From positions 1 to 60,000 of the forward strand of contig CAJJCA010000005.1 of assembly GCA_905182575.1 (NCBI GenBank): a stretch of 60,000 bases of DNA, in the 5' to 3' direction. The notes below the pieces were generated by a model that was given only the letters and a program-made list of their open reading frames with translations, had not been told where the DNA came from and searched no databases. Positions 4,007-23,156 of the stretch are shown in pieces. The stretch is from an uncultured Flavobacteriaceae bacterium. GTDB lineage: Bacteria > Bacteroidota > Bacteroidia > Flavobacteriales > Flavobacteriaceae. Positions within the stretch are counted from its first letter, which is position 1; each line of letters opens with the position of its first letter. Position numbers and translations under genes: made by a program.

Positions 4007-7000
4007 TTATTTTTTATAGAACTTATTGAAACGCCAGTAGGATAGAATCCCAAGTATAGAAATAATTACAAGGGCGTAATACACGAAATTAGGAGTGATA
4101 ATCTTATCGCCACTTGCATAAGAATGAAGTCCAACTAAGTAGAAATTAACACCGAAATAAGTCATTAGAATACTTGCAAAAGCAACAATACTCATAAAGT
4201 TAAAAGTCCAATTACTCCGTAATCCAGGAACTAAGCGCATGTGAATTACAAATGCGTAAACCATGATACTGATAAGTGCCCAGGTTTCTTTTGGATCCCA
4301 ACCCCAATATCTCCCCCAACTTTCATTGGCCCACATGCCTCCTAGGAAATTCCCAATGGTAAGCATAATTAAACCGACGGTTATTGATAATTCATTGATT
4401 ATTGTGAGTTCTTTTATATTCAATTCAATTTTTTCTTTATTTTTTTTATTGGTCAACAGCATTAACAACAAAGTCACAACTCCTATGATCATTCCGAGTG
4501 CAAAAGGTCCATAACTCCCGACAATAACTGCAACGTGAATCATGAGCCAGTAACTGTCCAAAACAGGCTGTAAATTTGCTATTTCAGGGTCCATCCAGTT
4601 CCAATGCGCAATCATTAAAATCATGGAAGAAACAAAAGCGGTTGAAGCCAATGTTAAGTCAGATTTTCTTCCAAAAATTAATCCCGAAAAACAAAGTTGC
4701 CCAAGCAACATAAATCATTGATTCATAGGCATCACTCCAAGGTGCATGCCCCGAAATAAACCACCTTGCGATCAAGCCTCCTGTGTGGAGGATAAAAAGG
4801 AAAAGAATTATATATTTTAAAAAAACTATTAAAAACTTTAGTGCTTTATTGTTTTTAAATATTTGAACTAAAAGAACAACAAACAAAAGCATGCCAGCAT
4901 AGAGATACCAGCTGAAAAGCTTCTTAAATATGTCGTACTTATTGTAGGTGATTTCAGCATCTATTCTTTTGGCTGAAGGCAACACCTGCTTGCCAAATTT
5001 CCTTTGAAAGCCTTCTATGCTTTCTAACAAACCATTGGATTGCTCATAGTCCCCTCCGTTTTTAGCCAACCTAAGGGCATTGAAATACAAAGGCAATATG
5101 TTATAGACATAAAGTGAATCCTTTCCTTTGAAACTCGAATCTTTTAATTCTGGATAAGAAACCCATTTGTTAGATAATTCATTGGGAATTGGAAAAATTC
5201 TTAAAACCTTTCCTTCCAATGCTGAATACAACAAATTTACCCTCCGGTCTACTTCAATAAAATCTTTTTGGAATTGATTCGGTACTGCAGCGCGATAAGC
5301 ACTTTCTAATTGAGAAGATATTTTATAATTTCCTTGGTCATCAAAAAACGAAACCAAAGAAGCCTTTTTTTGCTTCGAGTCTACTTCAAGAATACTTCTT
5401 AAACTATCATTGCCTCTTTTTAGATAAATAATTGGGATGTTATACCAAACCGCAGGGTTTTCAATCATCGACATCATCACCTGATCGGCATTAAGTTCGC
5501 CATATTTGTCACTCTTACTTACTTTCCTCAACAACTCTGAAGAAAAAGTGTTTGCTGGCTTCATCCTTCCCCCAAGGTCTTGGATCACAAGGCGACCAAA
5601 TTTTCGCGCATGTTCTTTCGAAACTACATTTGTATTAACTACTGAATCAAAATTAAATACGGGACGCGTGGTGTGTCCATGAGATTGTCCATTGGCAAAG
5701 GAAAGACCAAACAACAAAAGCATCAATGTTAAACTTTTCTTTTTCTGCTTTAACTTTTCAAGCTTTGCAGATAAATCTTTAAATCGAGTTTTGCCAATAA
5801 AAAAGATTCCCATCATACTTAAATACAATAAAATATAACCCGCATAGGTAATATTCGTTCCCCAAAAATCATGATTTACCGAAAGTACCGTTCCGCGTTC
5901 GTCAGGGTCAAATGAAGCTTGAAAAAAACGAAATCCTTGATGATCTAATACGTGATTCATATAAACCTCATATTCAAAGGGATCTTTGTCCTCGACTGTA
6001 ATCTCACTCTTAAATGAAGAATAGCTTTTTTCTGTACCAGGATATTTTTCCGCAATAAAATCATTCAATCTAATTGAAAAAGGCAATTCCTTTCTTAGAG
6101 AACCATATTTTAAATAAAAATCCAATCCCCCTAAAGTTATTTTCTTCATGTTATTAGAGATTCCTTTGCCTCCAAGAATCGTAATTGAATCAGATTGGTT
6201 TCCCGCAATTATATTTAATCTTAGCGCATCTTCCGCTTGTTTTGTTTCTTCTGAAATTTTAACCCATTCAAATTGTCCTCTTAGAGGAGGATCTGGAATT
6301 ACAAATTGGAAATTGGCTAAATTATATAACGATCTCAATTGGAGAGTCTGCTCAATTAATTCTTCAACATTTCCTGTTTGTTGATCGGCCATTCTCATGT
6401 AACTCCCCTCGAAAGGTGATGTTATGTAATGGAGTCCGCCTTCTGATCGCAGATTTATTGCGCCCGCAATAGGGTTGTTAAGGGTAAACAGAATGTTATG
6501 AATACTTGCAACCTCCCCCTCTTTTAAATAATGGTCATGACGCGAACCATCTCCCGATTCAACAATCTTTATGTAACGGTCTCCACTGTCGTTCAGGACC
6601 AGTTGTTCCTCAACATCCTCAGTATAGTTGAGATAATTTATAGAAAATGGAATTTTATTAAACTGATTGTCCCAACTGAAATCATTGTTGACATGCTCGG
6701 AAAACAAAAAGTCTTTTTCGAGTGTTTTACGCTGAGCAATGCCGTCAATCTCGCCTTCAACAAAGACTGTTAAATAAGTTTTATCCGTTAGAAAAGTGTT
6801 CTCAGTTGCTCCCTCTCTGATCGGCATTACGCCTTCATAACCAAAATATCTTGTAATAAATGCTCCGAAAATGATCAAAATAAAAGAAAGGTGAAGCATT
6901 AAAACCGTCCATTTTTCTTTTCTAAATAATTTATATTTAAAAATATTTCCGAAAAAATTAACCATTAATAAGACTAAAATAAGCTCGAACCACCAAGCGT

Positions 7001-14541: not shown

Positions 14542-15381
14542 TCAGTTACTCCATTTTTCTATGGACTCATTGTTCATGATTTCATAATCTTTATTACCCG
14601 CCTTTATGGCAAGTGCCAAAGACTTCTTAGCCGCAGCAATAGCAGCAGAGGTTTCATTTAAACCTGCTAAAATTAAAGATTGTTGACGGAACATCCAAAA
14701 AGCATCATCTTGCATCTCAACTGCTTTAGATATCCAAGTTTTCGCCTGATTAAGGTCGTGTCCTTCGTTAAGATAATAAACCGCTGCGTTGTAATAATCT
14801 CCAGCTTTGGGATTATTAGATAATGTTTTTTCAATACTTAACATGGCTTGTTTAACAGAGGGAACTTCTACAGGCAGGGAGATCGAGGTGTTTTCCCATG
14901 ATAGGTTTATGTTGGCGCCACTACTCTTTATATCAGAGATGTCAATCGTAAAAGTTTCGACTTCTTTGTCAATTCTTTGGACGGGTAAAGTGATGCTAAG
15001 TGCAATTTTGCTTTCCTCCCACTCTTTAGGAACACCCCAAGAGTCTGTCCTACTATAAAAATACAACACCCAACTGTTTTCATTTGGCAGGGTGTAAATA
15101 GCGTATTTTCCTGAAGGTATTTCCTTACCCTTAATCATTATTGTGTCAGAAAACTCAATGGTTGTATTTTTATTGGCACCCGTTCTCCATAATTCTCCAA
15201 AGCGTATTAAATTTCCAACAATTGCTCTGCCTCTTTTCGAAGGGCGTGCGTATTCAATCGTAAAATCTGTCATCCCAACAACTTGAGATATTTTAGCCTT
15301 AGGACTCGGCTGGGGTGTTCTTACTTGAGCAAATGTTATGCTACAAAATAAAGAAACGGCTAATAATAAATAGTTTTTCAT
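14542..15381 (-). CDS. DUF2911 domain protein with C-terminal TPR-like region (279 aa)
   Basis: Signal peptide MKNYLLLAVSLFCSITFAQ; DUF2911 domain about residues 30-170 (SQVVGMTDFTIEYARPSKRG, LWRTGANKNTTIEF, GKYAIYTLPNE). Residues about 185-275 are helical and TPR-like (GDYYNAAVYYLNEGHDLNQA, WISKAVEMQDDAFW). Two-part DUF2911-TPR proteins of about 280 residues are common in Flavobacteriia; function unknown, probably periplasmic. It is the longer paralogue of the protein at 1226-1756. A TATTTTTG -7 box is found about 40 bases upstream on its strand (15422-15429). Confidence 0.88.
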   Translation of the reverse strand: MKNYLLLAVSLFCSITFAQVRTPQPSPKAKISQVVGMTDFTIEYARPSKRGRAIVGNLIRFGELWRTGANKNTTIEFSDTIMIKGKEIPSGKYAIYTLPNENSWVLYFYSRTDSWGVPKEWEESKIALSITLPVQRIDKEVETFTIDISDIKSSGANINLSWENTSISLPVEVPSVKQAMLSIEKTLSNNPKAGDYYNAAVYYLNEGHDLNQAKTWISKAVEMQDDAFWMFRQQSLILAGLNETSAAIAAAKKSLALAIKAGNKDYEIMNNESIEKWSN

Positions 15382-15429: not shown

Positions 15430-15480
15430 TAATATTGAAATAGTTTTTAAGGTAAGTTAACTGAAAATTCTTTATTAATT

Positions 15481-15539
15481 GTTTATATTTTGTTTAAGTA
15501 TGTATAAAAATAGTTAAACGTTTGTTTATATTTGTTTAA
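15481..15539 (+). promoter_or_regulatory. Direct repeats and -7 box upstream of the photolyase operon
   Basis: GTTTATATTTTGTTTAA (15481-15497) and GTTTATATTTGTTTAA (15524-15539) are near-identical direct repeats, 43 bases apart start to start. The second contains a perfect TATATTTG -7 box (15527-15534). Between them, GTTTAA (15492-15497) faces TTAAAC (15514-15519) as an inverted repeat. Repeats overlapping the -7 box fit a repressor operator; B12/MerR-type regulators control such operons elsewhere, but no regulator gene is in view here. Confidence 0.5.
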
Positions 15540-15555
15540 ATAAATATATTAATTT

Positions 15556-16010
15556 ATTTATCGCAAGCATACTTTCCAGAATCTTCCAATAACTTGCGAC
15601 CAAGCTTGGGATTTTTTGTGTGATCCAAATGTCTTTTTTAGAAACTGATTATATGGGGTTTGAAATTTTAAGCGGTGCTGAAAAGAAAATGTATGCCGGT
15701 CAAATTATTCAGTATATCGTTACTCCAGTCATGGGAATTCCTACGAAATGGGTGACTGAAATTACACATGTAAAGGAAGGTGAATATTTTGTAGACGAAC
15801 AACGTTTTGGCCCCTATGCATTATGGCACCACAAACACTTTATTCGTCCGATTGAAAACGGTGTTGAAATGGAAGACATTATTGACTATAAAATTCCTTT
15901 TGGAACACTCGGAAGATTGGCACATCCGATAATTGTCAAGCCCAAACTCAATGAAATATTTGATTAACGCAGAAAAAATAATTGAACTTTTTGGAGAATA
16001 TAAAAACTAA
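15556..16010 (+). CDS. SRPBCC family protein, first gene of the photolyase cassette, two frameshifts
   Basis: Small alpha/beta-grip protein of the SRPBCC (START-like) superfamily. Pieces in three frames join in order: YRKHTFQNLPITCDQAWDFL and CDPNVFF (to about 15635), then DYMGFEILSGAEKKMYAG through PLGRLAHPI-type residues (FGTLGRLAHPIIVKPKL), then KIIELFGEYKN ending at TAA 16008-16010. No standard start codon is visible; the first residues follow a TAA at 15550-15552, so the start near 15556 is approximate. Such proteins often head flavobacterial photolyase operons; a hydrophobic ligand is likely but unknown. It ends 2 bases before the SDR gene. Confidence 0.75.
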
Positions 16011-16012
16011 AT

Positions 16013-16711
16013 ATGAAAAAAAATATACTAATAATTGGGGGTAGCTCAGGAATTGGACTCGAATTGATCAAATTAATTGGGGGAGAAAATAACGTTTTTT
16101 CGGCCTGCAGAACCAACGAACATTTGACTGGCTTGAATGTAACTCACATTCCTTTTGACGTTTTAACTGACACCTTGGATCTCTCTGTGTTACCAGAATC
16201 GTTAGACGGTTTTGTTTACTGCCCTGGAAGCATCAATTTAAGACCTTTCAAAGGACTTAAACCTGAAACTTTTCTTAATGATTTTTCAATCAATGTAATG
16301 GGAGCTGTCAAAACATTACAGTCCGTATTAAGCAAATTACAAAGTGGAGATGTTACAGCAAGCGTTGTGTTTTATAGCACTGTCGCAGTCCAAACTGGGA
16401 TGGCCTACCACGCAAGTGTTGCCGCTGCAAAAGGAGCATTAGAAGGCTTGGCGAGATCATTGGCAGCAGAATTAGCTCCAAAAGTAAGGGTCAACGTCAT
16501 TGCACCTTCGATTACAGATACTCCGCTAGCAGATAAGTTCCTGAACAACGACACCAAAAAAGAAAATGCAGCTGGAAGACATCCACTACAACGTTTTGGA
16601 AGTGCCGAAGAGATGGCAGAAGCAACCGCATTTCTTTTAAGCAATAAAAGCAGTTGGATGACTGCTCAAGTTCTTCATATCGACGGAGGAATTGGAGACA
16701 TAAAAAGTTAA
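16013..16711 (+). CDS. Short-chain dehydrogenase/reductase (232 aa)
   Basis: Classical SDR fold: ILIIGGSSGIGLELIKL (NAD(P)-binding Gly-rich loop), VYCPGSINLRPF at the NAG-motif position, catalytic Ser in VVFYSTVAVQTG, YHASVAAAKGALEGLA (Tyr replaced: the usual YxxxK reads H-A-S-V-A-A-A-K, with Tyr one place earlier in AYHASVAAAK), and the closing IAPSITDTPLADKFL. Substrate unknown. It is a regular partner in photolyase cassettes of this group. Spacing is 2 bases from the SRPBCC gene and 6 bases to the photolyase, so it is in the same operon. Confidence 0.85.
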   Translation: MKKNILIIGGSSGIGLELIKLIGGENNVFSACRTNEHLTGLNVTHIPFDVLTDTLDLSVLPESLDGFVYCPGSINLRPFKGLKPETFLNDFSINVMGAVKTLQSVLSKLQSGDVTASVVFYSTVAVQTGMAYHASVAAAKGALEGLARSLAAELAPKVRVNVIAPSITDTPLADKFLNNDTKKENAAGRHPLQRFGSAEEMAEATAFLLSNKSSWMTAQVLHIDGGIGDIKS

Positions 16712-16717
16712 ACAAAA

Positions 16718-18022
16718 ATGGGAAAAGTAACTTTATTTTGGTTTCGTCGAGACCTGAGAGTCTTCGACAACAGAGGTCTTTATGAGGCCTTAAAGCATTC
16801 AAATAAAGTTCTGCCTATTTTTATTTTTGATGAAAAAATCCTAGACAAGCTTCCAAAAAAAGATGCTAGAATAACATTTTTGTTAAAAGCCTTGGGGGGC
16901 ATCAATAAAGCGATGAAGGGGAACAGATGTACTGTAGGAATTTATAGAGGCGCTCCCAAGGCTATTTTTAAAAAACTCACCAATGATTATGAGATTGACA
17001 AAGTAATTGCTAATCATGATTATGAGCCATACGCTTTGGAACGTGATGGTGAAATAAAAGAACTATTAGGGGACAAAGGAATTGACTTTATTACCTACAA
17101 AGACCAAGTAATCTTTGAAAAAGATGAGATTTGTAAGAACGATGGAAAGCCATACCTCGTTTATACTCCCTATTCCAAAAAATGGATTGCGAATCTAAAG
17201 CCTCAAGATACAAATCATTATCCCTCAGAAAATCATCTTGGTAATTTATACAATGATTCGTCTCTTCCTACATTAACCATAGCGGATTTAGGTTTTGAAT
17301 CCTCAGAAAAAGAACCGCTTCCACATACATTTACTGATGAAGTAATTGACAATTATGAAGCAACTCGAAATTTCCCAATGCTTGACAGTACTTCCCGTTT
17401 AGGAGCTCACCTTCGATTTGGCACAGTCAGTGTCAGACAACTAGTTGAGAAAGCAGCTGTAGCCAAAGAAATTACATTTTTAAAAGAGCTGATTTGGAGA
17501 GAGTTTTTCATGCAGATTTTGTGGCATTTTCCTCATACCAAAGACAGTAATTTTAAATCAAAATACGATCGGATAGTGTGGAGAAATGACGAAGAAGAAT
17601 TTGAGAAATGGTGTGCTGGTGAAACAGGATATCCATTTGTAGATGCGGGAATGCGGGAATTAAACGAGACTGGTTTCATGCACAATCGAGTGCGGATGTT
17701 GGTGGGTAGTTTTTTGTGTAAACACCTTTTGATCGATTGGCGATGGGGGGAAGCTTATTTCGCTGAAAAGCTATTGGATTATGAAATGTCAAGCAATGTA
17801 GGAAACTGGCAATGGGTAGCGGGCTGTGGTGTTGATGCAGCACCCTATTTTAGAATCTTTAATCCTACCGAACAGATTAAAAAATTTGATAAAGAACTCA
17901 AATACATTCAAAAATGGGTGCCTAATTTTCAAGAGTTAGACTATCCACAACCCATTGTTGATCATAAGTTTGCTCGCGAACGTTGTTTGAGTGTTTATAA
18001 AGCAGCATTAAACATGGCATGA
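16718..18022 (+). CDS. phrB: Deoxyribodipyrimidine photolyase, class I type (434 aa)
   Basis: Light-driven repair of cyclobutane pyrimidine dimers. The N-terminal antenna-binding domain starts [22 protein letters not shown]; the C-terminal FAD domain shows [48 protein letters not shown] and [18 protein letters not shown], with the Asn that faces flavin N5 and the Trp of the electron-transfer chain both present. Length about 434 is at the short end of the class. The stop overlaps the DUF2256 start by 4 bases (ATGA). Confidence 0.92.
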
Positions 18023-18153
18023 AGCGGGTATTAAAACAAAATTTACCTGAGAAAATTTGCCTGACTTGCAATCGTCCATTTCAGTGGAGAAAGAAATGGG
18101 AACGTGATTGGGAAAATGTCAAATATTGTAGTAAAAAATGTAAATCCACATGA
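18019..18153 (+). CDS. DUF2256 small zinc-binding protein (44 aa)
   Basis: [20 protein letters not shown] followed by [20 protein letters not shown] and CKST: the CxxC...C...C pattern and WRKKW/VKYCS blocks are diagnostic of DUF2256, a tiny protein nearly always found beside cryptochromes or photolyases. Four cysteines suggest one zinc. It overlaps the photolyase stop and the cry-DASH start by 4 bases each, so it is tightly coupled. It is easily missed because of its length. Function unknown. Confidence 0.88.
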
Positions 18154-19452
18154 CAACAGCTTTGGTTTGGTTACGAAACGATGTGCGTTTTCAAGACCAA
18201 CAGTCCTTTTTCAATGCTTGCAAGTCTTATGACAGGGTCGTGGCATACTATACTTTTGAGCCAAAAGATTTTGAAAAAACAACTTGGGGTTTTCAAAAAA
18301 CAGGAAAGTTTAGAACACGTTTCAATATTGAAACACTTCAATCCCTTCAACTTGAATTAAAAGAAAAAAATATTACGCTAATCGTTGAAAAGCGATCTGC
18401 AACAGTGGGAATTCCCCATTGGATCGAAGGCCTAAACGCAAGCGCCTTGTTTTTTCAAGAAGAATGGACAGCTGAAGAAAAATTAATTTCAAATGCAGTT
18501 TGTGATAGTTTATCAAAGAAAATTCAGGTTTTTACTAATTACGATCAATTCCTATTTCATCCCGATGATATCCCCATGGACATTGATTCAATACCACAGG
18601 TGTTTACTGTTTTTAGAAAAAAATGTGAGAAATACAGCACTATCAAATCCTGCATTCCAGAACCCGTAATTTTAGATAAAAAATCTTTATTAACTGCGTC
18701 CTTCACCATTCCTACTCATGAAGAATTAGGGTTTGCATCTTTTGAGACCCTCAACGCATGCAGCCTTTCCATTTTTGGGAGGAACGTCGTCGGCATTGAA
18801 TCGCATAACGGACTACTTTTGGAAATCCGAGCGCCTTTCATTTTATAAGCAAACCAGAAATGGTTTATTAGGAACAGATTACAGTTCAAAATTTTCACCT
18901 TGGTTAGCCAACGGTTCCCTTTCAGCAAGAATGATTTATTGGGAAGTACAACGCTATGAAAAAGAAATTCAAAAAAATGAATCCACCTATTGGTTAATTT
19001 TTGAATTGATTTGGCGAGATTATTTTAAGTACATCTCATTAAAGCATGGAAATGCAATCTTTCATCTGGGTGGTATTTTGGATAAAAAATATACTTGGGA
19101 TTCCAATTCGGAAATTTTCTTAAAATGGACTGAAGGAAAAACCGCGGAGCCTTTTGTCAACGCCAATATGATTGAACTTAAAAAAACAGGTTTTATGAGC
19201 AATCGAGGCAGGCAAAATGTTGCAAGTTTTTTTGCCAAAAGCATGTTGATGGATTGGCGCATGGGAGCCGCTTATTTTGAGCAACAACTTATTGATTACG
19301 ATGCACATAGCAACTGGGGGAACTGGCTCTACGTTGCAGGTGTTGGCAATGACCCACGTGACCGAAAATTTAATATAAAACTACAAGCAGATCGTTATGA
19401 TGCCAAAGGGCAATATCAAAAACGCTGGTTGCAAAACACCTTGTTTGAATGA
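18150..19452 (+). CDS. Cryptochrome DASH, one frameshift (about 434 aa)
   Basis: Cry-DASH photoreceptor/ssDNA photolyase. The N-terminal part reads [20 protein letters not shown] and [21 protein letters not shown]. After one base change near 18745 it continues as [55 protein letters not shown], and [18 protein letters not shown] with NDPRDRKFN, the DASH hallmark. Length (1303 bases, one over a multiple of three) fits a single error. Start ATG overlaps DUF2256 by 4 bases; the stop overlaps the iron-sulfur photolyase start by 4 bases. Confidence 0.92.
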
Positions 19453-20981
19453 AAGTACGATTAATCCTTGGCGATCAATTAAATCTAAACCATTCTTGGT
19501 TTGATCAAATTGACGATTCGGTCTGTTATGTGATGATGGAGGTTCGGCAGGAAACCGATTATGTCAAGCATCATTTACAAAAAGTAGTTGCTTTTTTTAA
19601 CGCCATGCGCCATTTTAAAAGTGCTATTGAAAACAAAGGACATCGCATTCATTATTTTAAATTAGACAATCCAGAAAACAAACAAAGCATTACGGAGAAT
19701 TTGAATCAAATAATTGGTCAATATGAAGCCACTCATTTTGAGTATCAGTTTCCTGATGAGTACCGACTTGATTTAGAATTAAATCAATATTGTAAAACAC
19801 TCTCTATTTCCTCCTCCGTTATAGACTCAGAACATTTCATGACTTCAAGGCTTTTTCTTACTGAATTTTTTGAAGGGAAAAAGCAGTTGGTGATGGAGTT
19901 TTTTTATCGCAGAATACGCAAAGATTTCAATCTGCTAATGGAAGCTGGAAAACCCTTAGGAGGTCTTTGGAACTTTGACAAAAACAATCGGAATAAATGG
20001 AAGGGAGAACCTGCAATTCCACAACCATTTAAAGGAGCTCCAACATCCATTGATGCTTTGGAGGAACTCTTAAAAAAACAAGGGGTTGAAACTTTAGGAA
20101 CCTTAGATTCAGCTAATTTTTTGTATCCGGCCACTCGGGAAGAAGCCCTGCTTCAATTGGATTATTTTAATCAGCATTTACTAGAATATTTTGGACATTA
20201 TCAAGATGCCATGCACACCCAAGAGGTGAATTTGTTTCATTCCCGTCTTTCCTTTGCATTAAATACAAAAATGGTTTCCCCTTTAGAAGTGGTTACCTCG
20301 GTAATTGAATATTATCACGCCAATGAAGAAACAATTGAGATTTCTCAAGTAGAAGGTTTTGTACGTCAGATTATTGGTTGGCGAGAATACATGCGAGGAA
20401 TTTATTGGAGAGAAATGCCAAACTATGCAAAGAAAAATGTTTTGGATAATCAAAATTCACTTCCTGATTTTTATTGGACCGCCAAAACCAAAATGAATTG
20501 CTTGCATCACAGCATTCAAAATTCATTAGACCATGCCTATGCTCACCACATACAGCGTTTGATGATCACTGGAAATTTTGCTTTGTTAGCGCAAGTACAT
20601 CCCGATGAAGTGGATCAATGGTATTTAGGGGTCTATGCTGATGCGGTGGAATGGGTGCAAATGCCTAATACTCGAGGGATGAGTCAGTGGGCAGACGGGG
20701 GAATTGTTGCCACAAAACCCTATGTTTCTGCAGCGGCCTATATTCATAAAATGAGTAATTATTGTGGTGATTGTCAATATGATAAAAAGAAGCGAGTGGG
20801 TGACGATGCCTGTCCCTTCAACAGCTTGTATTGGAACTTTTTAGATGATAAAAAAGAGCATTTCGCAAAAAACAATCGCATGGCAATGATGCTGCGTTTG
20901 TTGGAAAAAATTCCTGCGGCGGATCTTGCTGAAATAAAAAAGCGTGCTTATGAAATCATAACCCAACCCGATGCATTTTAA
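19449..20981 (+). CDS. Iron-sulfur bacterial cryptochrome/photolyase, FeS-BCP, (6-4) type (510 aa)
   Basis: Prokaryotic (6-4) photolyase family. Starts [18 protein letters not shown]; the FAD domain has [19 protein letters not shown] and [19 protein letters not shown], the His-rich block used in (6-4) repair. The four cysteines expected to hold a [4Fe-4S] cluster are present: one in KMNCLHH, two in YCGDCQYD, one in [11 protein letters not shown]. Trp and Tyr residues near [17 protein letters not shown] are also typical. Length about 510 is normal. It overlaps cry-DASH by 4 bases and the next cryptochrome by 11 bases. Confidence 0.92.
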
Positions 20982-22449
20982 GACCAAAAAACTTAATGTA
21001 ATTTGGTTAAAAAGAGATCTAAGACTTTTAGACCATGAAGCCCTCCATGTTGCTTTGGCGTCTGACAACAACTGCCTTCTCTTATATGTTTTAGAAGAGG
21101 AATTATTAAACGACAGCCATTACAGTGAGCGTCATTTCAATTTCATCAAACAGTCAATCGCACAATTAAATCAACAATTAAAACCGCATAATACTAAAGT
21201 GCTGTGTGTGCAAGGAACTGTTTTAAGTATTTTGAAAAGTTTAAATGAACGTATTCCGATTTCATTGTATTCTCATCAAGAAACCGGGATTCAACTCACA
21301 TTTGATCGGGATAAGGAAGTCCGACAATGGGTAGATTCTAAAAAAATTATTTGGAAGGAGTTTTTGCAGCAAGGTGTTTTTAGACGCTTGAGGAATCGAA
21401 AAAAATGGATTCATTTATGGACTGCCCATATGAATCGACCTATTTTGACTTTTTCTCCCAAAGAAAATCAGTTGGTTGATTCGGAAACGATTCTCGAACT
21501 TGAATCTCATTTTGAGGTTGTTTCGTTGGATACATCAAAATCAGCATTACTTCAACCTGGGGGAGAACACAATGCGCATCGTTATCTAAATTCCTTTTTT
21601 GAAAGTCGTTATTTAAATTATCAAAAACACATTTCAAAACCCAATTTGGCTCGAAAGAGTTGCAGCAGACTTTCTCCATATATTGCTTGGGGAAATATTT
21701 CAATGCGGCAAGTTTTGCAGCGAACAGAAGGAGAAAAAGAGCAGGGTAAAAGGAGTCGTGCCTTATCCGCTTTTGATTCACGCTTAAGATGGCAAGCTCA
21801 TTTTATTCAAAAATTTGAAATGGAATGTGTAATGGAATTTAAGAGTATTAATAAAGGATATCATGCCCTTACAAAAGAAAAACGTTCTGATCATTTGACT
21901 GCTTGGGAAACCGGGCAAACGGGAGTACCCATGGTAGACGCTGCCATGCGGTGCTTGGTTGCAACGGGTTATTTAAACTTTAGAATGCGTGCTTTGGTCG
22001 TTTCTTTTGTGATTCATCAACTGTGGCAACCTTGGCAATCCATTTCAGGGTTTTTGGCCCGTCAGTTTTTAGATTTTGAACCGGGAATTCATTTTCCTCA
22101 AATTCAAATGCAAGCAGGTGAAACCGGAATAAATACCCTTAGAATTTATAATCCAGTTAAAAATGGACTGGAGCACGACCCGCAAGGGTTATTTGTAAAA
22201 CAATGGATTCCAGAATTGGCTACTTTGCCTCAAGCTTTCCTTCACACCCCCTGGAATTTAACGCCCTTGGAAGCTGCTTTGTATGATTTTAAGTTAGGAG
22301 ACAATTATCCATTGCCCATAGTTGATTTAACCAAAAGCCGTGAAAAAGCAAGTCAAACCTTGTGGAACCTTCAAAAAAACAGTTTGGTTAGAAAAGAAAG
22401 CAAACGAATTTTAAATAGACATACCTTACCAAATAGTAGAGAATCATGA
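20971..22449 (+). CDS. Divergent cryptochrome/photolyase family flavoprotein (492 aa)
   Basis: Two-domain photolyase architecture: [20 protein letters not shown] at the N-terminus, then [41 protein letters not shown] and [20 protein letters not shown]. At the place where photolyases have N-x-G-x-W-Q-W this one has [20 protein letters not shown], so the Asn facing flavin N5 and the proximal Trp of the electron chain appear to be missing. A related marine family shares this block. DNA repair is therefore doubtful; a sensor role or single-strand activity is possible. It overlaps its neighbours at both ends (11 and 4 bases). Confidence 0.88.
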
Positions 22450-22730
22450 AAAAAGAAATCACATTAGAGGAAGTTCAAATTGATCGAGTTATCGAAATGG
22501 CATGGGAAGATCGCACTCCTTTTGATGCCATCCTAATGCAATTTGGTTTAAAAGAACAGGATGTCATTAAGTTGATGCGAAGGGAGATGAAACTCTCCAG
22601 TTTTAAGATGTGGCGGGCTAGAGTTCAGGGGCGAAAAACCAAGCACAGCAAAAGCCGATCAGAAACTGTAGATCGTTTTAAATGTACCCGTCAAAGAAAT
22701 ATTAGCAATAATAAGGTTTCAAAACGCTGA
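22446..22730 (+). CDS. TIGR03643/DUF2805 family protein (94 aa)
   Basis: Short basic protein with [37 protein letters not shown] and [15 protein letters not shown], the TIGR03643 pattern. The first half looks like a helix-turn-helix; the tail is Lys/Arg-rich and could bind nucleic acid. The family is usually located beside cryptochromes or photolyases, and here it closes the cassette with a 4-base overlap. Function unknown. Confidence 0.88.
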
Positions 22731-22757
22731 TTTTTATTAGCTTATGATGAAAATCCC

Positions 22758-23156
22758 ATGTCCTCCAACAAAACAAAACCTACCGCTACCTCTGTCCATC
22801 TGTTTTTAGAAGACCTAGTCCCTGAGGGAAACAAATTGATAGATGGGGATTATACCGAATGATATTTCGCCATAGGGGAGCACAGACGAATTCTTTGTGG
22901 CAATTCCATTACCGACCTTGGTTATTATCATTATAAATATGCGAGCGGGAGAGAAGGCGATTGGTTTTTAACTGGTTTTCCCCCTAAAAAATGCCCTTAC
23001 ACTTTATCTGATATGCGATATTTCCCACAAGAAATTTAATTTTGAAGCCCTTGGAAAACACAAAAAAGGCAAAGGTTGCCTTTATATTAAAAAGTTAGCA
23101 GATGTGGATTTAAAGGTTCTCGAAGAGATCTTTGTTAGATTTTCCTTTAATTGTTA
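22758..23156 (+). pseudogene. DUF1801 domain protein, broken
   Basis: ATG 22758 reads MSSNKTKPTATSVHLFLEDL, then an in-frame TGA at 22860-22862; the frame goes on as YYHYKYASGREGDWFLTGFP (a near-perfect DUF1801 block) and shifts near 22993 into TLYLICDISHKKFNFEALGK and GCLYIKKLADVDLKVLEE. The length is normal for the family (about 130 residues) but the segment before YYHYKY is poorly conserved. A stop plus a frameshift in a non-essential gene suggests real decay. Its 3' end overlaps the convergent CarboxypepD_reg gene by 10 bases. Confidence 0.7.

Follow-up and report, generated by a model that had tools for sequence, protein, structure and literature searches.

The stretch of 60,000 nucleotides analysed here, called the window throughout, comprises positions 1 to 60,000 of contig CAJJCA010000005.1 of an uncultured Flavobacteriaceae bacterium (assembly GCA_905182575.1, 70.7% complete, 29 contigs). 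Between about 15.5 and 22.7 kb the window carries eight genes, all on the plus strand, in the order SRPBCC-like, short-chain dehydrogenase/reductase (SDR), photolyase PHR, DUF2256, cry-DASH, DPRP, CRY, and DUF2805/TIGR03643. DPRP is an iron–sulfur (Fe-S) prokaryotic (6-4) photolyase, and CRY is cryptochrome-like. From PHR onward each gene overlaps the next by 4 bp, except for the DPRP/CRY junction, where the overlap is 11 bp. The larger open reading frames (ORFs) that flank the cassette, 14542–15381 upstream and one from 23147 downstream, lie on the opposite strand. We conclude that this is a real, conserved photorepair operon, probably a light-controlled one. Its enzymes are of known kinds; what is new is a tie between DUF2256 and DPRP in two phyla, an operator, and the CRY subfamily. 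The features are collected in Table 1.

Table 1. Features of the photorepair cassette, in window coordinates.
Feature	Position	Strand	Basis
Operator-like element TGTTTA-N5-TGTTTA-N17-TTAAAC	15480..15519	+	sequence; upstream regions of relatives; CarH consensus as given in the available text of PMC9304148
Putative Bacteroidota -7 promoter element TATATTTG	15527..15534	+	sequence; most relatives have a comparable element at this position
SRPBCC-like gene, frame-broken	15560..16011 (outer limits approximate)	+	only 15620-15967 listed as ORF
SDR	16013..16711	+	PF13561
Class I CPD-type photolyase PHR (CPD, cyclobutane pyrimidine dimer)	16718..18022	+	PF00875+PF03441; key residues
DUF2256, 44 aa, C-x2-C-x19-C-x3-C	18019..18153	+	PF10013; zinc-module-like model
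cry-DASH, split over two frames (18150-18848, 18733-19452)	18150..19452	+	ORFs; TIGR02765
DPRP, Fe-S prokaryotic (6-4) photolyase	19449..20981	+	PF04244; 503.6 bits to 7ykn
CRY, cryptochrome-like, from a conserved subfamily whose repair residues are replaced	20971..22449	+	profiles; residue alignment
DUF2805/TIGR03643, 94 aa, all-helical, helix-turn-helix (HTH)-like model	22446..22730	+	profile matches

Twenty stretches were fetched from the genus of the window for comparison. All eight genes stand in one order and on one strand in 17 of them; the other three end at contig edges and keep the gene order. The 4-bp PHR/DUF2256 overlap recurs at 16 of 18 junctions, the 11-bp DPRP/CRY overlap at 16 of 20, and the 4-bp CRY/DUF2805 overlap at 12 of 20. 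The complete order is also found at named loci, among them L277 (Candidatus Arcticimaribacter), L285, and L312. An earlier interpretation made from the letters alone, here the sequence-only reading, had proposed that the four flavoproteins form one module in a tandem, overlapping cassette. Gene order, overlaps, and a common upstream element in the genus back the module. The tandem cassette holds as to order, strand, and the 4-bp and 11-bp overlaps; the exception is that cry-DASH and the SRPBCC-like gene are frame-broken in the window. At four of the 20 loci (L073, L077, L085, L089) the DPRP slot is occupied by another DPRP subtype (33% identity), and the neighbours that were read are unchanged.

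The distribution of DUF2256 was followed in two samples: 198 Bacteroidota genomes (197 drawn at a completeness of at least 90%, plus the window's own) and 249 Pseudomonadota genomes (the phylum to which Sphingobium, G236, belongs). The genomes within each sample are related, which inflates p values. Among the Bacteroidota, DUF2256 is found in 64 genomes, DPRP in 65, and both in 58 (phi 0.85); the corresponding numbers for the Pseudomonadota are 68, 69, and 59 (phi 0.81). Any photolyase-family gene accompanies DUF2256 in 63 of 64 and 68 of 68 carriers, respectively; the sole Bacteroidota carrier lacking one, G103, has a 22-residue partial match. The tie to DPRP persists when the number of PF03441 matches is held fixed. 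In Pseudomonadota with exactly one PF03441, DPRP is present in 25 of 32 DUF2256 carriers and in 8 of 72 non-carriers (p 3e-11, inflated by kinship); with at least two, in 33 of 35 and 2 of 6; with none, in 1 of 1 and 0 of 103. In Bacteroidota the fractions are 3 of 4 carriers against 3 of 51 non-carriers with exactly one PF03441, and 55 of 59 against 2 of 6 with at least two. Outside the Bacteroidota, DPRP was found in 31 of 34 genomes reached through DUF2256, these being 34 of the 37 such loci sorted by hand from the wide search described below. That DUF2256 goes with the Fe-S photolyase in both phyla is the robust new point, and it suggests that DUF2256 is an overlooked companion of this enzyme in many bacteria.

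For gene position, 63 Bacteroidota stretches with DUF2256 were read, 61 of them confirmed by tblastn. Weak matches in G032 and G103 are part of the genome counts, are absent by tblastn, and fall outside the 61 loci. A photolyase-family gene lies within 1 kb of DUF2256 at 46 of the 61 loci, on the same strand in all 46; at one locus it is farther off, and at 14, some of them short contigs, none lies in the stretch. The wide search, of which the best 80 of at least 592 loci were taken, gave a photolyase within 1 kb at 46 (same strand at 42 of these), farther off at 4, and none in the stretch at 30. In the 59 Pseudomonadota with both genes, DUF2256 lies within 3 kb of the DPRP domain in 32, on the same strand in 25 of the 32; by hand count, spacing and strand fit a DUF2256 directly downstream of DPRP in 16 and directly upstream in 8. 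The sequence-only reading had singled out DUF2256 as a likely part of the system, and presence, absence, and position in the two phyla bear this out. It had also named the observation that would count against it, small proteins occurring mostly without a photolyase; in the genomes counted, they do not so occur.

DUF2256 of the window matches the PF10013 profile and has all four cysteines. Over 33 aligned rows, the C-x2-C, x19, C-x3-C arrangement is accompanied by a strongly conserved RPFxWRKKW...VKYCS signature. The structural model has a predicted local distance difference test score (pLDDT) of 84 and a predicted template modelling score (pTM) of 0.51. A sequence search of the PDB with the two small proteins, DUF2256 and DUF2805, gave best E values of 0.38 and 0.066, and no DUF2256–photolyase fusion was recognised by eye in the frames of 141 loci. 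At L329, DUF2256 (6001-6114) is in frame with an upstream 476-residue stretch, NAD-epimerase-like by eye, a possible fusion.

Among the repair enzymes, DPRP carries the PF04244 domain (246.1 bits against a cut-off of 22.1) and scores 503.6 bits to 7ykn, with four cysteines aligned with cysteines of that structure; these we take to be the Fe-S cluster ligands. PHR has both domains and the key residues of a class I CPD photolyase, presumably equivalent to E. coli E274, N378, W382, and W384. The window's cry-DASH is not a single open frame; its C-terminal ORF alone reaches 358.7 bits to TIGR02765 (cut-off 317.05). The sequence-only reading had supposed that flavin photoproteins usually number one or two per genome, which does not hold for this sample: the count of PF03441 plus PF04244 matches is four or five in 41 of the 198 Bacteroidota. 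The full distribution is 76 genomes with none, 51 with one, 12 with two, 18 with three, 33 with four, and 8 with five, weak matches included and with the proviso that a broken gene may count twice. In the window's own genome (G000), the fourth counted PF03441 match was not located among the matches listed.

The fourth flavoprotein was analysed in 54 CRY proteins gathered by best match to the window's CRY, 19 from the genus (the window included) and 35 others. All 54 read NF where PHR has the HN of HNR, and within GNWQW all have Gln for the Asn and Met for the second Trp. The first Trp is replaced by L (33), F (10), I (7), V (2), M (1), or C (1), and the repair Glu by C (22), S (17), A (12), or D (3); the functional roles and numbering of these repair and proximal Trp positions are our assumption. 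The conserved repair and proximal Trp residues of a CPD photolyase are thus not found in CRY. The motif NFRMR is retained in 52 of the 54 proteins, QxQMQxG in 53, and PQxQMQAG in 36. Because replacements and motifs are consistent across the 54 proteins, CRY is, to judge from the alignment, a maintained subfamily rather than a decayed copy. The replaced canonical residues would fit a non-repair role; to the light sensing that the sequence-only reading had suggested as an example, they speak only indirectly. The nearest solved chains, at about 138 bits, are Cryptochrome-2, presumably plant proteins. Membership in the bifunctional PhrSph98 group was considered and ruled out: PhrSph98 is reported to be class II-like, and the profile match of CRY to the class I-type/plant-cryptochrome families is far above that to phr2.

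DUF2805/TIGR03643 of the window matches its profiles over the cut-off. Orthologues occur in 53 of the 198 Bacteroidota, all 53 of which have a photolyase-family gene and 48 of which have DPRP; three further genomes have a divergent paralogue only. At 52 DUF2805 loci, a photolyase lies within 1 kb in 16, is farther off in 3, and is not in the stretch read in 33. Thus, the claim that DUF2805 goes with photolyases stands at the level of genomes (53 of 53), and the claim that it is nearly always beside them does not (16 of 52 loci within 1 kb). The model (pLDDT 77, pTM 0.54) has helices, an HTH-like centre, and a basic C-terminus. DUF2805 probably belongs to the same response as a small helical factor that binds DNA or protein. 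Unlike this suggestion, metagenome correlation has associated DUF2805 with translation domains, according to the available part of PMC3597751. The divergent second paralogue (L191-L194, L208) belongs to one genus of the same family, with E values of about 1e-18 to 1e-23. No photolyase appears near it in the stretches L191-L194, which are outside the 52 loci; L208 was left unscored.

The common upstream element combines two direct TnnACA repeats of 11 bp, as they appear on the opposite strand, with an opposed half-site, TAAACG in the window. On its 3′ side is a TAnnTTTG element, which we take to be the Bacteroidota -7 promoter consensus. Of 18 upstream regions, 17 (those of 16 relatives and of the window) have the core TGTTTA-N17-TTAAAC with at most one mismatch, 15 of them as a perfect copy; the eighteenth is cut by a contig end. 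In the 17 cassette promoters the second repeat, at -11, is perfect in 10 and has one mismatch in 3, and the opposed half-site is TAAACA in 12, TAGACA in 2, and, in 3 that include the window, TAAACG. The window itself has two perfect tandem repeats, and at least two tandem 11-bp TnnACA repeats close to the promoter were taken as the mark of a CarH operator. The CarH repeat is given as nnnnTnnACAn in 11-bp tandem in the text of PMC9304148 at hand; the element resembles this consensus, with which TAAACA agrees when read on the opposite strand.

Genome-wide, a relaxed form of the operator pattern gave 48 matches against 16 for a reversed control. A strict, near-palindromic form gave 56 against 9; one site is often counted on both strands, leaving about 40 places by hand count, and the window's own site is unmatched. 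The strict matches listed, at 30 loci, represent 25 distinct sites and five promoters, named by Pfam: the cassette (9), htpG/TetR-ABC1 kinase (10), msrA-folE (3), TonB/Rieske (2), and fasciclin (1). Operator-like motifs stand at other promoters of the genus, namely L230 and L377 (msrA-folE), L235 and L361 (htpG/TetR-ABC1), L234 and L368 (TonB/Rieske), and L366 (fasciclin). G000 also has matches of the TGGTTATTAGATGTTTAAATATAG type, with comparable ones in G010 and G021; these may form a repeat family and were put aside. We infer that msrA and folE would be sensible members of a light regulon, through repair of oxidised methionine and through pterin/folate supply.

A candidate binder is encoded in the window's genome (G000:C27). 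The protein has MerR_1 and B12-binding_2 domains with the motifs RIWEKRY and Wx9EH; these are the CarH domains and motifs, with one Arg changed to Lys in the RxWERRY-like helix motif. The gene precedes a phytoene-synthase-type gene (crtB) at all 10 genus loci looked at, the squalene/phytoene synthase match being by Pfam on one of the 10, L266. The available text of PMC7064467 speculates about a CarA/LitR-like gene that neighbours crtB in a Chryseobacterium.

We favour, with slightly better than even confidence, a single photorepair operon under CarH control, with DUF2256 as an uncharacterised zinc protein that partners the Fe-S photolyase. Observed directly are the order and overlaps of the genes, the conserved operator, the co-occurrence and linkage, and the replaced residues; control by light, CarH as binder, binding of zinc, and the adaptor function are proposals. 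A CarH/LitR-type repressor would probably occupy the 11-bp repeats immediately 5′ of the promoter during darkness; in the light, it would release the operator and the operon would be expressed, with translation of the overlapping genes presumably coupled. CPDs would be repaired by PHR and by cry-DASH (the latter, by family, in single strands or loops), and (6-4) photoproducts by DPRP, with CRY, which lacks the canonical repair residues, acting alongside. DUF2256, at 44 residues, would be a zinc-type module cooperating with the Fe-S photolyase in the living cell, probably as an adaptor, whether for access to DNA, for recruitment to a partner, or for tuning. A wider version, in which DUF2256 is a dedicated zinc-finger partner of DPRP across phyla, DUF2805 and CRY form a light-switched repair complex in Bacteroidota, and the CarH regulon includes msrA-folE, is offered tentatively and is in full rather doubtful.

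Several observations weigh against the favoured reading. In the 78 Bacteroidota without PF03441 there is no DUF2256–DPRP tie (0 of 1 carriers, 2 of 77 non-carriers). DUF2256 occurs without DPRP in 9 of 68 Pseudomonadota and 6 of 64 Bacteroidota carriers, and DPRP without DUF2256 in 10 of 69 and 7 of 65, respectively. The photolyase nearest to DUF2256 in Bacteroidota is mostly cry-DASH (22 loci) rather than DPRP (8), the others being a short antenna-less form (7), CRY (7), and PHR (2). Foldseek with the DUF2256 model placed YacG nearest, with FCS and XPA zinc modules in the top ten, all at E >1, and with the DUF2805 model it gave no significant match, again with all E >1. The second operator repeat has 3–5 mismatches in 4 of the 17 cassette promoters. 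In the clusters of other families, about 1.4 Mb, the operator gave four two-mismatch matches plus G010 itself. Relative to the B12 motif D/ExHx2G/P...SxT/V...GG, the version in the CarH-like protein is imperfect, with the His kept (EVHELS, ExHxxS) and the later glycines altered, and the promoter of this protein's own gene is no more than a loose match to the operator. Finally, the Synechococcus elongatus Fe-S photolyase made in E. coli missed its antenna until FO synthase was added, as described in the available text of PMC9178010.

An alternative, which we rate as unlikely yet to be taken seriously, is that the genes share light-induced regulation only, DUF2256 and DUF2805 doing other photoprotective jobs with no contact to photolyases. 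It would account for DUF2256 adjoining every photolyase class, for the 33 of 52 DUF2805 loci without a photolyase in the stretch read, and for the operator preceding msrA-folE and the TetR-ABC1 genes as well. Against it stand the tracking of DPRP by DUF2256, which holds in the two phyla when the number of other photolyase genes is kept constant, and the 32 of 59 Pseudomonadota in which the two lie within 3 kb, with 16 fitting a downstream and 8 an upstream position. Alternatively, DUF2256 might be a maturation factor that loads Fe-S, flavin adenine dinucleotide (FAD), or antenna into DPRP, an idea suggested by its four conserved cysteines and its coupling to an Fe-S enzyme. We find this distinctly improbable. 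When produced in E. coli BL21, the S. elongatus enzyme is active and carries FAD and cluster, with the antenna following once FO synthase is supplied (PMC9178010, in the text available), and the Caulobacter Fe-S photolyase made in the same host is active (PMC12082625, likewise). Among control genomes, S. elongatus and Caulobacter have a DUF2256 match, and E. coli has none; the Caulobacter vibrioides control also matches DPRP. Because the enzymes are active from E. coli without DUF2256, it is probably unneeded for FAD or cluster loading or for basic chemistry, and an adaptor role in vivo is probably the better guess.

Two further alternatives concern the operator and the state of the cassette. 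DUF2805, not CarH, might be the regulator that binds the operator: its model is HTH-like with a basic C-terminus, and its weak fold matches include resolvase, Lrp-type, and TrpR DNA-binding domains. All of these matches have E >1, however, and the operator fits the CarH repeat TnnACA with 11-bp spacing as published (PMC9304148, available text), so we regard DUF2805 as quite improbable in this role. The cassette might instead be decaying in the window's lineage and no longer working, as its broken frames would suggest. The two ORFs of the cry-DASH gene do not share a frame, and near 18751 the sequence differs in length by 1 bp from that of each of the two closest relatives. The SRPBCC-like gene, open in the close relative L081, has its N-terminus out of frame and a second shift near 15970. 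Yet in those two closest relatives (about 94–95% DNA identity) cry-DASH is open, at 433 residues each, and indels of the same type are found across the whole contig: 37 window-specific frame-changing indels lie in the 32 kb aligned to both relatives (window 1–32178), intergenic DNA included. Because they run throughout the contig, the cassette breaks belong to a contig background of error or decay and are nothing cassette-specific. The two breaks may be assembly error, and we consider decay of the cassette hardly credible.

Work on prokaryotic (6-4) photolyases has for the most part treated the enzyme by itself. A close parallel to the cassette is an ultraviolet-B operon of Synechococcus sp. 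PCC 7335, in which photolyase genes are likewise joined by an 11-nt overlap; it differs in having two genes and a class II-like bifunctional enzyme, and DUF2256 and DUF2805 are unmentioned in the available text (PMC9649867). Its authors, by the same text, knew of just two earlier reports of photolyases in operons. The window's DPRP is like the Fe-S bacterial cryptochromes and photolyases (PhrB, CryB, and the Caulobacter (6-4) photolyase, among others) in its match to 7ykn and its aligned cysteines. A DUF2256 partner is unmentioned in the available portions of their literature. The function of the Fe-S cluster in these enzymes is still called unknown in the accessible part of PMC12082625. With the CarH/LitR repressors, the present system shares the MerR and B12-binding_2 domains, RxWEKRY, Wx9EH, an 11-bp TnnACA operator near the promoter, and a gene by crtB (PMC9304148, available text). 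It differs in its imperfect B12 lower-ligand motif, in its supposed target, a photolyase operon, and in an operator with one half-site inverted and a second tandem repeat that is degenerate in 4 of 17 promoters. A further comparison is with the TRASH/FCS-type treble-clef zinc fingers, YacG included: the part of PMC4047054 at hand places DUF2256 in the TRASH clan, and relative to these fingers it has its own conserved RPFxWRKKW/VKYCS signature.

The open-licence literature, as far as its available text extends, yielded no tie of DUF2256 or DUF2805/TIGR03643 to photolyases, an absence that is no proof. PF10013 is among the domains tabulated with scores for lifestyle in Xanthomonas, with photolyase unmentioned in the portion available (PMC8612006). 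A further hit, PMC3681718, was rejected, the term there being, in the text available, a Plasmodium gene number. DUF2256, as a tiny follower of (6-4) photolyases in two phyla, is a testable candidate for what these enzymes need in the cell, and, if the favoured reading is true, a missing accessory factor of prokaryotic photorepair. The operator offers a testable model of the light control of photorepair in Bacteroidota.

The first gene of the cassette was named SRPBCC by the sequence-only reading, a name that profiles support weakly, with no match over cut-off: the window ORF matches no Pfam family, and an open copy in a relative reaches 20.9 bits to Polyketide_cyc, below the cut-off of 23.4. 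Just 3′ of the cassette, about 400 bp (window 22740-23140) hold an apparent gene split over several frames, recognised by eye and presumably DUF1801-like. An antenna-less, short photolyase-like protein of about 360–410 aa adjoins DUF2805 and/or DUF2256 at seven loci: L096 (4671-5900), L093 (6121-7236, Pfam on this locus), L118, L120, L185, L187, and L188. Near photolyase/DUF2805 genes, a flavin-reductase-like gene is found at 12 loci (L096, L100, L101, L105, L119, L135, L144, L157, L165, L168, L185, L188) and a TetR plus ABC1-kinase pair at eight (L114, L119, L125, L128, L135, L145, L170, L180), both names being given by Pfam on representatives.

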